Positions 54,105 through 59,683 of a stretch of 64,000 bases of DNA are shown here, in pieces (position 1 is the first letter of the stretch; every line of letters starts with the position of its first letter). The position numbers and the translations under genes were made by a program. The notes beneath the pieces are model-generated. The model was not told the origin of the DNA. It saw only the letters and a list, made by a program, of their open reading frames with translations, and made no database searches. Where the stretch lies: NCBI GenBank assembly GCA_913057205.1, contig CAJXNO010000014.1:1-64000 (forward strand), written 5' to 3'. The DNA comes from an uncultured Flavobacteriales bacterium. Its GTDB lineage: Bacteria > Bacteroidota > Bacteroidia > Flavobacteriales_G > Salibacteraceae.

Positions 54105-54585
54105 GATAGCTGTCGGCTATCAGCTGTCAGCTGTCCGGGGGCTTAAGTCGTATGTCACAAGTCTTAAGAGGGGCTAGGAGCTGGGTGCTAGGCAAAACCG
54201 TTCACTGTCAGTTCGAGTATCGTTCCGCTGAAAGCGGAACGATGTATCGAGAACGACAGGACCCTAGTAGTGAACAGAGTGCAATTGGAATCATTCCGCT
54301 GCCGCGCTTCGAGACTTTTTTCGCCCTTGGCGAAAAAACCTGCGCCTGAGGCGCACAAGTCAGCATGACAGCTACAAGAAGAACTAGAGGCTAATAGCTA
54401 TCTGCTAACAGCCAACAGCACATTCGAAGTTATCAACCATTTTAGGCATAGTCATGAAGTCTTTTACTCATACCATGTTGTTTTCCAGCGGTATTCGTGC
54501 TTGTCCGCCTAAGGCGGACAGGTGTCTTTCGTCCCTGCCTGCCGGCAGGCAGGTTTCGTCTTTTCTCTTTTGTCTTTTGTCTGAC
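54105..54585 (+). repeat. Composite dispersed repeat, longest copy
   Basis: A 480-bp gene-free block with all modules in order: an AGCTGTCGGCTATCAGCTG run (54108-54133); GTCAGTTCGAGTAT, hairpin CGTTCCGCT-gaa-AGCGGAACG (54221-54241), ATGTATCGAGAACGACAG; GGAATCATTCCGCT; CTTCGAGAC, hairpin TTTTTTCGCC-ctt-GGCGAAAAAA (54316-54338), hairpin TGCGCC-tga-GGCGCA (54341-54355), GTCAGCATGACAGCTAC; an AGCCAACAGC run; TTATCAACCATTTT; CAGCGGTATTCGTGCTTG with hairpin TGTCCGCC-taa-GGCGGACA; and a GTCTTTTGTC run. It lies upstream of the glycan operon promoter. Confidence 0.8.
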
Positions 54586-54636
54586 GACCCCAACACATCC
54601 CCACCCACATCCGTAAAGCTAGCTGAAGAACAATTC

Positions 54637-54644
54637 TATATTTG
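54637..54644 (+). promoter_or_regulatory. -7 box of the 54.7-59.7 kb operon
   Basis: TATATTTG, exact TAnnTTTG, 28 bases before the first ATG. No clear -33 element. It is the only strong box ahead of six tightly packed genes. Confidence 0.5.
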
Positions 54645-54672
54645 AAGTCACAACCTGCACCGAACGCTTCGT

Positions 54673-55311
54673 ATGGCGAAAAAACCACGTAAGAAAGCTC
54701 CGAAACCCACCCCGAAAGAAACAGCAGCTAAGGCTAAGAAGCCTAAGCATCCGGATATGGAGATCCCTTTTCTGAAGAATGTCTTGGTATTGATCGCTTT
54801 GTTCTTCTTGACCTATTACTTGGTAGGAAATGTCAAGGGCTACAAGTGGCTACAGGAACGCTTCATTGAGGGTAACCTGAATAAGTTGGAGAAATTCGCC
54901 GATCTTACTACCGACCAAAAGTACCAAGCCTATTTCCGCTTCAACCATCAGTTCTTGACCTTCATTCGAGACAATACGGCTGATACAGCTATCATTTACA
55001 TGCCACCAGATTCTGTGCTGGATGTAGAAGACAAAAAGAGCGCCTTCTACACCAAGAAGCGTTCGAATTCGGTGCAGCATAAAACGTGGTCAACCTATCA
55101 CATCTACCCCAGAAAACTCGTGTATGACCGAGAGAAGGAGGAGATTCCCTCGTTTGATCAGTACACGCACGTAGCATGCGTAGACGGCTGGGGATACGAG
55201 TACTTGGAATACGATGTGCCCAAACAACAACGAGCACGTTACCAGGTCCTGCCCCGTACCGTAAAAGGACTGAAGGCGATGAATGAACGCGAAAAAAACC
55301 AAGCCCAATGA
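54673..55311 (+). CDS. Single-pass membrane protein, first gene of glycan operon
   Basis: A 212-residue protein I do not recognise. A very basic Lys/Pro/Ala-rich cytoplasmic start (AKKPRKKAPKPTPKETAAKA), one membrane helix (FLKNVLVLIALFFLTYYLVG, about 34-53) and an extracytoplasmic domain of about 150 residues (FRFNHQFLTFIRDNTADTAI, DKKSAFYTKKRSN, VACVDGWGYEYLEYD). The CVDGWGYEYLEYD patch resembles the small soluble domains that accompany membrane glycosyltransferases, but that is only suggestive. It ends overlapping the start of the GT-C-like gene (ATGA), so the two are co-translated and probably interact. Confidence 0.6.
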   Translation: MAKKPRKKAPKPTPKETAAKAKKPKHPDMEIPFLKNVLVLIALFFLTYYLVGNVKGYKWLQERFIEGNLNKLEKFADLTTDQKYQAYFRFNHQFLTFIRDNTADTAIIYMPPDSVLDVEDKKSAFYTKKRSNSVQHKTWSTYHIYPRKLVYDREKEEIPSFDQYTHVACVDGWGYEYLEYDVPKQQRARYQVLPRTVKGLKAMNEREKNQAQ

Positions 55312-56702
55312 CCTTGATCCACTTGATCGTACTGTTTCTCTGTGGCTTTGGTCTGATGAACTTGATCTCGCCCAAATTCGGACTGTTGGAGAAGATCGGT
55401 TTTAGCTTTCCGCTGGCCCACGGACTCGTAACCCTGCTGATGCTTCCCTACGACCTGTTGGGCATCCCGATCACGCTCACATCCCTCTACATTCCACAAC
55501 TCTTGGTCATCGCTTTCGTGGGAGGGTGGCTTTTCTACAAGCAACAACTTCCCCAGGCGGTTCGCATCCAGGATTGGAATAAGGCCAAGTCGTTCGGCTT
55601 CCTCAGCATCAACCTGCCTTGGATCTTCCTGATGTCCATCTTGGGCTACCTGCTTTATGTGGTGATCGCCAAGGCCATGTTCTGGCCAACGATCTCCTTT
55701 GACAGCGTGGCGGGCTATGATTTTGTTGGAAAGATGATCGCCATTGAAGGCAAGGTGAATGGGAGTATGTTCGACCCTGACCTGCCGTTCTATTCCATCC
55801 GAAGCGGTTATCCGCTTTATGTGCCCGGCGGCTTCGGCTATGCCTACCTGATGGGCTTTGATTCTTCCAAGATCACCACAGTCTTATTGATCCTCTCCAC
55901 CGTAGTGATGTACTACGCCCTCCTCTTGAATTACGTGAAGCACACCATGGCAGCCTTGTTCACCACGCTGTTCATCACCACCACAGAATACATCGCCATG
56001 AGCGCTCTATCGCTGTCAAATGTGCCGCACACCTTCCTGGCAGTAGCCGCAGTGGTCACCATCTTCATCTGGATGGATAAACGCGACCACCGCTATTTCT
56101 GGCTTGGGGTCATCTTCATGGCACTCAACGTGTGGGCGCGAAGCGACGGCATTGTCTTCATCGCAGGTACCGGTCTTTCTCTGCTCTTGTTTGCCTATCA
56201 AGAAAAAAAGTGGAAGGAACTCATCATCTTCGGCGCTGTATCAGGTGCGGCATTCATGATCTGGCAGGTTTACCTCAGCGGCACGCTAGGCATTACCAAC
56301 GACGGTGTTTTTGTAGACCATCTCTTCTGGGATGGGGAGAAGTTCGATCGCATGACAGATCTGATCTGGAGGGTGATCACCAATACCCAATTCTATGGAG
56401 TGGCGATGATCGTTATCCCGATCGGTATCCTGGCGAATTTCAGGACCATTCACAAGCAGCACTATCATTTGTTGATCGCCATTTTAGTGTCCTGGCTGGC
56501 TTACACGGCCTTGTACTATCAAATGGATAACGGAGGTGAGAACTTCGGTTACTCACTCAAGTCAATGATCAACTCATCCTACAAGCGCGGCATGTTCGCG
56601 ATCATCGGGGTGCTCTATTTCTACGTCGGCATCAGTCCGATGACCCAGAAACTCTCTCAGCTCATCATCGAGCCAGGTAATCCATTTAAACCCAAGCAAT
56701 AG
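55308..56702 (+). CDS. Polytopic membrane protein, GT-C glycosyltransferase-like
   Basis: A 464-residue protein with about 11-12 hydrophobic helices. A long extracytoplasmic loop after the third or fourth helix carries acidic residues (TISFDSVAGYDFVGKMIAIE, SMFDPDLPFYSIRSGYPLYV), the place where GT-C enzymes hold their catalytic Asp/Glu. Later helices (LNVWARSDGIVFIAGTGLS) resemble PMT/ArnT-type proteins. GT-C enzymes transfer sugars from polyprenyl-phosphate donors on the periplasmic face. The downstream UbiA-type gene could make such a donor. No close family is recognised, so the call rests on topology plus context. Confidence 0.6.
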   Translation: MTLIHLIVLFLCGFGLMNLISPKFGLLEKIGFSFPLAHGLVTLLMLPYDLLGIPITLTSLYIPQLLVIAFVGGWLFYKQQLPQAVRIQDWNKAKSFGFLSINLPWIFLMSILGYLLYVVIAKAMFWPTISFDSVAGYDFVGKMIAIEGKVNGSMFDPDLPFYSIRSGYPLYVPGGFGYAYLMGFDSSKITTVLLILSTVVMYYALLLNYVKHTMAALFTTLFITTTEYIAMSALSLSNVPHTFLAVAAVVTIFIWMDKRDHRYFWLGVIFMALNVWARSDGIVFIAGTGLSLLLFAYQEKKWKELIIFGAVSGAAFMIWQVYLSGTLGITNDGVFVDHLFWDGEKFDRMTDLIWRVITNTQFYGVAMIVIPIGILANFRTIHKQHYHLLIAILVSWLAYTALYYQMDNGGENFGYSLKSMINSSYKRGMFAIIGVLYFYVGISPMTQKLSQLIIEPGNPFKPKQ

Positions 56703-57380
56703 GTGAGCGCCATCGATTGGAGGCAGATCAAGCTGGTGGTGTTTGACGTGGATGGAACCTTGTACGATCAAGAAGGACTCCGCAGACACATGCTCCGTAA
56801 GCTGCTGCTTCACTACGGAGTGAGGCCTTGGTTTGCCCGGGAGTTGAAGGTGTTGCAATCGTTTCGTAGGCAGCGTGAAGCCCATGCCGGTGAATCCGGA
56901 GGAGGCATCGAGCGTTTGCAGTATGAATGGACGGCGCAAGAAACCGGTATATCCGCGGAGCGGGTAGAAGCCATCGTAACCCGATGGATGCTTGAAATTC
57001 CGCTACCACTGCTCAAACGCTACCGTTTTGCCGGTGTCGATACTTTCTTGGAAGCTTTGAAAGAACAAGGTATAAGCGCCCAGGTATACTCTGATTATCC
57101 CTATGAGCGAAAGCTGCAAGCGATGGAACTGATGATGGATGGCGGAGTAGACAGCACGCAAGCAGAAGTAGATGCCTTCAAGCCCCATCCCAAAGGATTG
57201 CAATACTTATTGGCATTGAACGATGTAAAGCCCGAGTTTTGCGTCTTCATCGGTGATCGGGAAGAACGCGATGGCGAGTGCGCACGCAATGCAGGGGTGC
57301 ATTCCATCATCGTGGATACCAAGAACCGACGATTTTTTAACGATTTGACCCTAGAATTACGTGGAAGCAGCAAAGGATAA
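56703..57380 (+). CDS. HAD-family phosphatase
   Basis: A 225-residue haloacid-dehalogenase-fold hydrolase starting at GTG directly after the previous stop. Motif I VFDVDGTLYDQEGLR (about 11-25) with the nucleophile Asp, motif II VYSDYPYERK with Ser, Lys in DAFKPHPKGL (motif III), and motif IV FIGDREERDGECARNAG. A helical cap sits between motifs I and II, giving access to small phosphorylated substrates. In the mycobacterial DPPR pathway a phosphatase removes the 5-phosphate from polyprenyl-phosphoribose. The position between a GT-C-like and a UbiA-type gene makes that reaction a reasonable proposal. It overlaps the next gene by 20 bases. Confidence 0.85.
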   Translation: MSAIDWRQIKLVVFDVDGTLYDQEGLRRHMLRKLLLHYGVRPWFARELKVLQSFRRQREAHAGESGGGIERLQYEWTAQETGISAERVEAIVTRWMLEIPLPLLKRYRFAGVDTFLEALKEQGISAQVYSDYPYERKLQAMELMMDGGVDSTQAEVDAFKPHPKGLQYLLALNDVKPEFCVFIGDREERDGECARNAGVHSIIVDTKNRRFFNDLTLELRGSSKG

Positions 57381-58254
57381 GTTACAATGTTGGGTGTGTG
57401 ATCACACCGACCTGAAAGAGGTGCGACCGTCACAGATCGACGGTAACTTGGGGAGCGAGAACTTCCTCATCACCAACAGCGATTACGGCAAGACCGCTGC
57501 GATCTACGAATGCCAGAACTGCAGCTTCAAGCAATGCCCTTACCTCACCGATGTGATCGAGTTCTATGAGTCCATGGAAGATGATCAATACGAGGAAGGT
57601 CGGGAACAACGCCTCTTGCAAGAACGCAAGGTGATGCAGCAGATCCAACGGATCAAACCGAACGGTAAGCTGCTCGACGTGGGTGCAGGTAGTGGTATCC
57701 TCATCCAAGCGGCCCAAGAATTAGGCTACGAGGCAGAAGGCATTGAACCCTCAAAGTGGCTCTATGAGCAAGCGCAAAAGCTGAACCTTCCGGTTGAACT
57801 CGGCATCTTTCCGCAGGACGATAAACTGCGTGGACCCTACGACATTGTCACATTGGTAGATGTGATCGAACACGTTAGCGACCCGAAAGGCCTGGTTGCT
57901 GAGATACGCAAGGTGCTTAAGCCTGATGGTATCTTGGTGGTGGTAACACCGGATGTGGACTCCATCATGGCAAAGGCCCTGAAATACAAATGGTGGCACT
58001 TCCGCATTGCACACATTGGTTACTTCAACAGGAAGAACCTGAACCTCGTGATGAAACGGGCCGGGTTTGATGTGTTCAAGATGATGCGTCCAACGTGGTT
58101 CTTCAGTGTGGAGTACCTCTTGGAGCGGGTGAGTGCCTACCTTCCTGGAAGGATGTCGGTTCCCGCGCCCGGATTCATCAAGCGCATGGTGGTACCGGTC
58201 AACCTACGCGATTCATGGATGGGCATTTATAAACGAGACGATAAAACGGCGTAA
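57361..58254 (+). CDS. SAM-dependent methyltransferase with zinc-finger N-terminus
   Basis: A 297-residue protein starting at GTG inside the HAD gene. Residues 10-59 have a Cys pattern C10xxC13...C51xxC54xxxxC59 (QCWVCDHTD; YECQNCSFKQC), a zinc-binding module seen on sugar- and small-molecule methyltransferases. The class I fold follows: LLDVGAGSGILIQAAQELGY (about 99-118), GIEPSKWLYEQA, VTLVDVIEHVSDPKGLVAEI and LKPDGILVVVTPD. The context suggests methylation of a lipid-linked or transferred sugar. The ending GIYKRDD abuts the UbiA-type gene (3-base gap). Confidence 0.85.
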   Translation: MEAAKDKLQCWVCDHTDLKEVRPSQIDGNLGSENFLITNSDYGKTAAIYECQNCSFKQCPYLTDVIEFYESMEDDQYEEGREQRLLQERKVMQQIQRIKPNGKLLDVGAGSGILIQAAQELGYEAEGIEPSKWLYEQAQKLNLPVELGIFPQDDKLRGPYDIVTLVDVIEHVSDPKGLVAEIRKVLKPDGILVVVTPDVDSIMAKALKYKWWHFRIAHIGYFNRKNLNLVMKRAGFDVFKMMRPTWFFSVEYLLERVSAYLPGRMSVPAPGFIKRMVVPVNLRDSWMGIYKRDDKTA

Positions 58255-58257
58255 ACC

Positions 58258-59178
58258 ATGTTCGGGAAGTTCAAGCACTACTTAGCGATCGCACGGCTAG
58301 ACCACTGGTTCAAGAACATCTTCATGCTGCCAGGCATCGTGATCCCATGGATCTACCTTTCTCCTGAGATAGATGTGCTATTGTTTATCAAACTGGTAGT
58401 TGGGGTCTTAAGTACCTGCTTCATCGCGTCGGCTAACTACGTCATCAACGAGTGGCTCGATGCGGAATTCGATCGCTTCCATCCCGTGAAAAAGCACCGT
58501 CCCAGTGTAACGCAAGGGCTCAAACAGAACTATGTGTACTTGGAATACGCCCTCTTCGGACTCGCCGGACTGGGCATGGCCATGTGGGTAGACCTGCGCT
58601 TCTTCTATGTTGCCCTGTTCTTCCTGATCATGGGATTCATGTACAACGTACGTCCTTTTCGCACCAAGGATCGGCCCTACATCGATGTGATCTCGGAATC
58701 CATCAACAACCCGATCCGGCTGACCCTCGGATGGTTGATGGTTTCGCCTGAGACCTTTCCGCCTTCCAGTCTGTTGGTGAGCTACTGGTTTGGTGGGGCC
58801 TTCTTGATGGCCACAAAGCGCTTCAGTGAATTCCGCTTCATCAACGACAAAGAATCTGCCAGTCTCTACCGCAAGAGCTTCGGTTTTTATGATGAGCAGA
58901 AACTGATGGTTTCAGTGGTCTTCTATGCGCTGGTTTCAACCTTCTTCCTAGCAATCTTCTTGTTCAAGCACCGCTTGGAGTTGATCGTTGCCTTCCCGTT
59001 CATCGCCCTGATCTTTGCCTGGTACCTCAACATGGGTTACGATGAGAACTCACCCGCTCAGCGTCCGGAGAAACTCTACAAGCAAAAGAGCTTCATCGCC
59101 TACCTCGGCTTTGTGGTGGTGCTGGTAGTGGCCTTGATGCTGGTGGATATCCCTTTCTTGGAGGTGTTCCAACAATGA
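58258..59178 (+). CDS. UbiA-type prenyltransferase, polyprenyl-phosphate phosphoribosyltransferase-like
   Basis: A 306-residue eight- to nine-helix membrane enzyme. The first Asp-rich motif is ANYVINEWLDAEFDRFHPVK (about 60-79: NxxxDxxxD), followed by KHRPSVTQG. Both the xxFHPVKKHRP sequence and the later GAFLMATKRFSEFRFINDK resemble 5-phosphoribosyl-1-polyprenol (DPPR) synthases such as Rv3806c more than quinone or heme prenyltransferases. The second motif is RPYIDVISESINNPIRLTL. DPPR synthases add phosphoribose from PRPP to polyprenyl phosphate. The neighbouring HAD phosphatase and GT-C-like protein fit later steps. A bacterial quinone role is less likely given the operon. Confidence 0.8.
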   Translation: MFGKFKHYLAIARLDHWFKNIFMLPGIVIPWIYLSPEIDVLLFIKLVVGVLSTCFIASANYVINEWLDAEFDRFHPVKKHRPSVTQGLKQNYVYLEYALFGLAGLGMAMWVDLRFFYVALFFLIMGFMYNVRPFRTKDRPYIDVISESINNPIRLTLGWLMVSPETFPPSSLLVSYWFGGAFLMATKRFSEFRFINDKESASLYRKSFGFYDEQKLMVSVVFYALVSTFFLAIFLFKHRLELIVAFPFIALIFAWYLNMGYDENSPAQRPEKLYKQKSFIAYLGFVVVLVVALMLVDIPFLEVFQQ

Positions 59179-59182
59179 CAGA

Positions 59183-59683
59183 ATGCAGATGCGGTCGTAT
59201 GTTGTCCTTCTAGTACTTCTCCTGGTTCAGCTGATGGCAGCGTGGCATGCTAAGGCACAGGACAATACCATCACCCATCGCGTGAATGATTCCGTGGTCT
59301 TGACCTTGGAGCGCATTCCTTTCAATGAAACCGCACATACCGTCAGTTATGAAGGCGACTTCCCTGTGGCCATTGATGGTACGCCGATCTTTGGAACGGA
59401 TGGAGACCTTCCGAAATTCAAGTTAGAGCGGGCTGAACTCACCATTGGAGCCGCACGCTATCAACTTCAGACCGATCATATGTACAACCCGTGGTTTGGC
59501 GCTGGTATCAACCCCAACCTGATTTATTTCTCCAAGGATGGAAGCAACTATCACCTTCAGGTGGTATGTTCAGACGGTGCAGGAACCTACGGAGCTGAGT
59601 GGATGATGGTAGGAGATGCAAGCATCAGAACCATCCTTACCCGCGACGAACACATCCTTTTTGAATACTTCGGCTCGCCTTGA
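59183..59683 (+). CDS. Small secreted protein, last gene of glycan operon
   Basis: A 166-residue exported protein, four bases after the UbiA-type gene. Signal peptide MRSYVVLLVLLLVQLMAAWH with cleavage near AKAQ; an ATG two codons earlier (59183) is equally possible. The mature part is all-beta in appearance (VVLTLERIPFNETAHTVSYE, YQLQTDHMYNPWFGAGINP, VVCSDGAGTYGAEWMMVGD). No known domain. It may be a periplasmic partner or an unrelated passenger. It ends two bases before the convergent ABC-F gene. Confidence 0.6.
   Translation: MQMRSYVVLLVLLLVQLMAAWHAKAQDNTITHRVNDSVVLTLERIPFNETAHTVSYEGDFPVAIDGTPIFGTDGDLPKFKLERAELTIGAARYQLQTDHMYNPWFGAGINPNLIYFSKDGSNYHLQVVCSDGAGTYGAEWMMVGDASIRTILTRDEHILFEYFGSP

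Follow-up and report, generated by a model that had tools for sequence, protein, structure and literature searches.

A probable lipid-linked pentofuranose operon with an apparently distinct UbiA-type enzyme in an uncultured Flavobacteriales bacterium

Introduction

Lipid-linked pentofuranose donors were long regarded as a mycobacterial specialty. A cluster of closely spaced genes on contig CAJXNO010000014.1 of an uncultured Flavobacteriales bacterium (family Salibacteraceae, assembly GCA_913057205.1) raises the question of whether such a donor is made in this organism, and from which sugar. The cluster lies in the 64,000-nucleotide stretch of DNA analyzed here (the window) and had been described, in what is called below the original prediction, as a possible polyprenyl-phosphoribose operon of six genes. 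Five of these, g1-g5, form a real operon, and we judge it fairly likely that they make up a pentofuranose-donor and transfer module, in which ribose, perhaps methylated, would be placed on a lipid and transferred to an envelope acceptor. By profile, fold and active site, the nearest relatives of the central enzyme g5 are polyprenyl-phosphate phosphoribosyltransferases, namely Rv3806c and Citrobacter ORF15.

Profile, fold and active site of g5

The original prediction had read g5 (58258-59178; like the other five genes, on the + strand) as a UbiA protein resembling DPPR synthase (decaprenyl-phosphate phosphoribosyltransferase), and had proposed a profile comparison as a check. g5 falls within the UbiA superfamily (PF01040, E = 2.3e-22; 79.9 bits against a cut-off of 34.2). 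In agreement with the prediction, its top NCBIfam model was DPPR synthase (77.3 bits), followed by the HAD-UbiA fusion family (73.5 bits); the other prenyltransferase models scored far lower, at 12 to 40 bits (heme 28, chlorophyll 27, 4-hydroxybenzoate 12). Because 77.3 bits lies below the curated equivalog cut-off of NF008977 (234 bits), g5 is best classed as a sister of the curated DPPR synthase families, not as a member.

The closest sequence to g5 in the PDB was 8j8j, which is Rv3806c bound to phosphoribosyl pyrophosphate (PRPP). A structure model of g5 built from 29 homologues (predicted local distance difference test, pLDDT, 92.7) aligned with 8j8j at Z = 26.0 over 284 residues, the runner-up structure giving Z = 23.2 and bacterial and archaeal UbiA structures as a whole Z = 19 to 26. 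Since Foldseek placed an archaeal UbiA marginally ahead of Rv3806c, although the latter has the top Z score, the modeled fold by itself would not decide the identity of g5.

The PRPP-site residues of Rv3806c (PMC10994848) were mapped onto g5. R22, K28, Y70, N73, D77, K87, R90, Y138 and K143 correspond to the identical residues R13, K19, Y61, N64, D68, K78, R81, Y129 and K137, and all nine, which bind pyrophosphate, Mg2+ or the 5-phosphate, are kept in 83/83 g5 relatives. They comprise every Mg2+/pyrophosphate ligand (N73, D77, R22, K87, R90, K143 and Y138) and two 5-phosphate ligands, K28 and Y70. The third 5-phosphate ligand, Y157, is replaced by Asn and the ribose O3 ligand Q135 by Gly, again in g5 and in all 83 relatives. 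Neither the E. coli enzymes UbiA, MenA and CyoE nor the host's other UbiA proteins have the equivalents of K28, Y70 and K87 together.

With D74E as the third, these changes (D74E, Q135G, Y157N) are fixed in 83/83 members and were found in no classical or HAD-fused DPPR synthase sampled, a set that included actinobacterial, archaeal and Lactococcus enzymes and HAD-fused ones fetched from plasmids. Classical enzymes carry D, mostly Q/N/T, and Y/F at the same three sites. g5 was therefore placed in a separate, widespread UbiA subfamily, named NE-type here, which in trees forms a clade apart from classical DPPR synthases. It is apparently a large and unstudied sister group with an altered sugar pocket.

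Neighborhoods of NE-type UbiA genes

A scan of named genomes returned 329 relatives of g5, of which the best 80 (48 to 61% identity) belong to Bacteroidota, Lachnospiraceae, Pseudomonadota, a cyanobacterium and others. A homologue of g3, the HAD protein, lay within two genes of UbiA, upstream or downstream, in 56 of 83 loci and farther away in one (Fisher 1e-31, a nominal p value given that the loci are related and not independent). The gene for a methyltransferase of the g4 type stood immediately upstream of UbiA in nine related loci from Bacteroidota, a cyanobacterium and a betaproteobacterium, and the block HAD-methyltransferase-UbiA occurred in seven loci counting the window. On a 4.95-kb contig of an Aquimarina metagenome-assembled genome (MAG), L062, all five genes g1-g2-HAD-methyltransferase-UbiA were present in order, with 39 to 61% identity. 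The original prediction had made conservation of gene order in relatives a test of its reading, and such conservation is seen for all five genes in L062, for the three-gene block in six related loci and for the close HAD in the 56 loci above.

g3 (56703-57380) follows g2 with no gap and had been called a HAD phosphatase, an assignment that held (HAD_2, 1.4e-15; motifs DVDGT, K and GDREERD intact). It is 42% identical to the phosphatase of a Rhizobium plasmid on which UbiA, HAD and GtrA are overlapping genes. We propose that g3 is the 5-phosphate phosphatase of a lipid-linked phosphoribose.

g4 (57361-58254; 20-bp overlap with g3) is a class I S-adenosylmethionine (SAM) methyltransferase with an N-terminal zinc finger, as had been predicted (Methyltransf_23, 2.3e-29; C10, C13, C51 and C54 invariant in ten sequences). 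It probably methylates the lipid-linked sugar. Alternatively, g4 may act on the acceptor, be it a glycan, lipid or protein, or on the finished product, the donor then being plain ribose; this is a real though lesser possibility. Methyltransferases often decorate envelope glycans, and most NE-type loci have no methyltransferase gene, so the donor itself does not need g4. Nevertheless, the methyltransferase is tied to UbiA, directly upstream in 9/9 loci, while the polytopic neighbor varies (F29, g2, or none nearby), and a role on the donor side fits this better.

NE-type UbiA genes often have a gene for a GT-C protein nearby (PMT_2, GT87, or a polytopic protein that matches no model), and GtrA stands directly behind UbiA in 14 of the 83 loci; in methylotroph loci a different type of HAD (PF12710) follows GtrA. 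The 9,146-bp plasmid p9146 of Paracoccus aestuarii (L179) carries a GT-C-like gene, an NE-type UbiA and GtrA, which suggests a compact, mobile surface-modification module. On plasmid NZ_CP023549.1 of Rhodobacter sp. CZR27 (L180:4296-7987), three genes follow one another: one for a HAD-UbiA-GT-C-like fusion of 885 residues, an intact NE-type UbiA, and GtrA. The fusion is 46% identical to a Ruegeria HAD-UbiA enzyme over 358 residues, but the alignment shows no equivalents of K28, Y70, N73 and D77 left in its UbiA domain. Here the NE-type UbiA seems to have taken over phosphoribosyl transfer from the fusion, as an enzyme replacement.

Three further arrangements were seen. In Lachnospiraceae and Solobacterium MAGs (L099, L118, L122, L128 and L138), an HpnJ-like B12-binding radical SAM protein is encoded between NE-type UbiA and HAD; radical modification of the lipid-linked sugar is possible at these loci. 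In L078, L089, L091, L101 and about 12 more Lachnospiraceae loci, UbiA-HAD lies right behind the housekeeping cluster prkC-rsgA-rpe, which suggests that the pair has a core function in the envelope of these bacteria of gut and rumen. In Hymenobacteraceae (L083, L087, L093, L096, L123, L124 and L127), HAD-UbiA is followed by genes for a pyranose-oxidase-like GMC oxidoreductase, a small protein and a polytopic protein, and the oxidoreductase is a possible alternative sugar-oxidizing step.

The radical SAM loci and the three fixed changes, absent from all classical and fused enzymes sampled, also favor a different substrate. The overall scheme would be the same, with the NE-type UbiA using a modified form of PRPP, some other sugar that is 5-phosphorylated and carries a 1-pyrophosphate, or, as acceptor, a lipid that is not polyprenyl phosphate. 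We regard this as rather unlikely. Every pyrophosphate and Mg2+ ligand and two of three 5-phosphate ligands are retained, the HAD and GtrA partners suit polyprenyl-P-ribose, and Rhodobacter CZR27 looks like a straight replacement. In addition, no other 5-phosphosugar 1-pyrophosphate is known to be a common metabolite.

The sugar, if PRPP is the substrate, is probably ribose, because the epimerases DprE1 and DprE2 are missing: neither is encoded in the operon, and neither was found within up to 10 kb in 80 NE-type loci. DprE1 was present within 1.5 kb in 6 of 25 classical DPPR-synthase loci, for which the flanks were far shorter than in the NE-type set. Nor was an ALO domain (PF04030, the DprE1-type oxidase) found in the 99.9% complete host genome, and the Corynebacterium glutamicum control was detected. 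The prediction of ribose rather than arabinose, made from the lack of an epimerase pair, thus gained support.

The glycosyltransferase g2 and its partner g1

The predicted GT-C-like character of the polytopic protein g2 (55308-56702; 4-bp overlap with g1) is borne out through its relatives. g2 has no Pfam match by itself and matches the NCBIfam LA_3751 family putative glycosyltransferase at 28.8 bits, and 5 of 11 members of its family match PMT_2 (best 5.7e-9). Aligned by hhalign with PMT_2 GT-Cs located near NE-type UbiA genes, it gave prob 89 and E = 2e-6; a search of its profile against PDB sequences found nothing. D132, Y168, E227 and R278 are invariant. D132 is a candidate catalytic residue and is accompanied by a Y168-P motif; D132 and Y168 are similar to the acidic motif and the YPP motif that GT-C enzymes have.

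g1 (54673-55311), a basic protein without a Pfam match, crosses the membrane once and has a non-cytoplasmic domain. Its homologues lie immediately upstream of g2 homologues in L062 (39% identity), L056 (34%), L051 and the f26 genomes, and g1 and g2 are probably partners. Another reading, in which g1 would be a periplasmic domain split off from a GT-C protein, was dropped, as hhalign gave no significant match (prob 1.3). In L056 the g1-g2 pair is followed by a GT2 gene without UbiA, and in the f26 genomes (L041-L050) a g1-like and g2-like pair stands directly after the ATP-synthase gene atpG, again with no UbiA. As the pair occurs in these settings, g1-g2 would fit a GT-C module with a swappable donor.

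Proposed pathway

From the sequences, residues, linkage and fold similarity observed, we infer the following reactions, sugar, methylation and acceptor. g5 would move phosphoribose from PRPP onto polyprenyl phosphate, giving polyprenyl-P-ribose-5-P, as its residues, fold and context suggest. g3 would then remove the 5-phosphate, a step for which conserved linkage and precedent argue. The place of g4, conserved between HAD and UbiA, is consistent with methylation of the lipid-linked ribose. A protein encoded outside the operon would flip the donor, and outside the cytoplasm g2, with g1 as its single-pass partner, would transfer the (methyl)ribofuranose to an acceptor in the envelope.

Several points weigh against this pathway. 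Two of the three changes fixed in the NE-type subfamily fall on residues that contact ribose O3 or the 5-phosphate, alanine at the equivalent of D74 in ORF15 is reported as damaging (PMC11127046), and no published assay of any NE-type enzyme was found in the literature. There is no flippase (MATE or GtrA) among the six genes and no GtrA in the genome, where the search was not extended beyond GtrA. The complete five-gene order was found on only one other contig, L062, and the AlphaFold model of g2, built from two sequences, was of low confidence (pLDDT 37) and was not used. Finally, whole-sequence trees fail to part the NE-type subfamily from MenA, and the approximately unbiased (AU) test keeps both the DPPR synthase (p 0.54) and the MenA placement (p 0.35 to 0.66).

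The trees bear on another explanation, that g5 is a quinone- or MenA-like prenyltransferase with incidental neighbors. iqtree groups the NE-type clade with E. coli MenA and one host paralogue (ultrafast bootstrap 99), and the AU test does not reject this. However, the grouping rests on the longest branches, MenA has no equivalents of K28, Y70, H84 and K87, no MenA model reaches E = 0.1 against g5, and the conserved HAD, GtrA and GT-C context would be left unexplained. We therefore hold a MenA-like g5 to be very improbable. FastTree joins the clade weakly to classical DPPR synthases (support 0.49), and the AU test rejects grouping with E. coli UbiA (p 0.021), with CyoE (p 0.004) and with one other host paralogue; ChlG was not among the sequences. 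Whole-sequence phylogeny was dropped as a deciding test, as the two programs differ on MenA and the AU test ties the two placements. Instead of the deep branching, it is the active-site residues, the gene context and the profile matches that carry the assignment of g5 as a phosphoribosyltransferase relative. Profile, fold Z scores and AU test gave no firm grouping with quinone or chlorophyll enzymes, the outcome that the original prediction had named as fatal to it; MenA is tree-compatible but has no such PRPP site. In particular, g5 does not appear to be a 4-hydroxybenzoate or heme prenyltransferase.

Operon limits and host

The six open reading frames lie where they had been placed, and neighbors overlap or sit at most 4 bp apart, g5 following g4 after a 3-bp gap. 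Of the proposed six-gene operon, g1-g5 stand as one unit. The secreted protein g6 (59183-59683; 4-bp gap after g5; no Pfam match), counted earlier as a member, is not conserved with the rest. It has no homologue in any NE-type UbiA locus and only weak, scattered ones elsewhere in three genomes of the host family, so it is probably a bystander outside the system. The -7 box TATATTTG is present at 54637-54644 as described, but is not evidence for a promoter, because the window contains 24 copies of its pattern where chance alone would give 29, and no -33 element was seen with it. Repeats of the GCCTGCCGGCAGGC and CGCCTAAGGCG types, both palindromic, lie in the intergenic stretch upstream of the operon (54300-54600).

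The host genome measures 2.83 Mb, and the window is part of its contig 14. In 34 other genomes of the host family, 12 of them from the same genus, the g5 UbiA gene had no match at E 1e-20. The neighboring ABC-F gene is kept across the genus, and its flank differs in the nine relatives examined. From these two observations the cassette appears to be accessory, through gain or loss. Its G+C content of 0.51 does not stand out.

Relation to known systems and significance

The closest published system, which the original prediction did not foresee any more than it did the distinct UbiA subfamily, is that of Citrobacter youngae O1/O2. According to Kelly et al. 2024 (PMC11127046), a UbiA-fold PPPRS and a HAD phosphatase make polyprenyl-P-ribofuranose; a MATE protein is proposed to flip this product, which a GT-C enzyme (GT136) then uses. 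The three components are ORF15 (PPPRS-PRP), ORF14 (MATE) and ORF12 (GT136). Candidate systems in many bacteria are given there, and the main text makes no mention of Bacteroidota or of a methyltransferase in the donor route. Shared with the window are the UbiA-fold phosphoribosyltransferase, HAD phosphatase and GT-C transferase and, for the ribose version, the lack of DprE1/E2. In Citrobacter a single polypeptide contains both HAD and UbiA, which are separate genes here, and g3 has no BLAST similarity to the HAD of the Ruegeria HAD-UbiA fusion, which is of the Citrobacter-type architecture. The window adds a methyltransferase and a small GT-C partner, and its UbiA is from another subfamily. 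Of the three components, PPPRS and phosphatase are represented by homology and conserved linkage, and the GT-C by g2 through its homology to PMT_2 GT-Cs, GT136 itself not having been compared; a flippase gene is absent from the locus.

The mycobacterial decaprenyl-phosphate-arabinose pathway (Rv3806c, Rv3807c, DprE1/E2, Rv3789, Emb/Aft) shares the UbiA fold, the PRPP-site residues and a separate phosphatase gene. In contrast, the window has a HAD rather than a PAP2 phosphatase, no epimerases, the changes D74E, Q135G and Y157N, and a methyltransferase. The rhizobial and roseobacterial UbiA-GtrA-DprE1-DprE2 operons (Sinorhizobium alkalisoli, Ruegeria) are likewise compact and predicted to make a polyprenyl-linked pentose, but have a classical UbiA and an epimerase pair, while the window has neither epimerase nor GtrA. 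By this comparison the locus is best seen as a variant of the Citrobacter kind of pathway, not a new kind.

More tentatively, the NE-type UbiA proteins, which number in the hundreds and occur in Bacteroidota, Lachnospiraceae, Pseudomonadota, cyanobacteria and other groups, might form a separate functional class. Its product would be a lipid-linked pentose that the Rv3806c/ORF15 pathway is not known to make: in the window a ribofuranosyl donor bearing a methyl group, elsewhere possibly a radical-SAM-modified one. Should the donor or acceptor differ as considered above, the subfamily would make a novel lipid-linked sugar.

Lipid-linked pentofuranose donors were biochemically shown for Gram-negative O antigens in 2024 (PMC11127046). 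The present locus is a pointer to a large subfamily, sister to the key enzyme and undescribed in the literature found, whose sugar pocket differs in a fixed way; with it come an exchangeable phosphatase and what looks like a methylation step. The locus supplies a short list of testable enzymes and predicts that pentofuranose decorations may occur in the envelope glycans of Bacteroidota and gut Lachnospiraceae.

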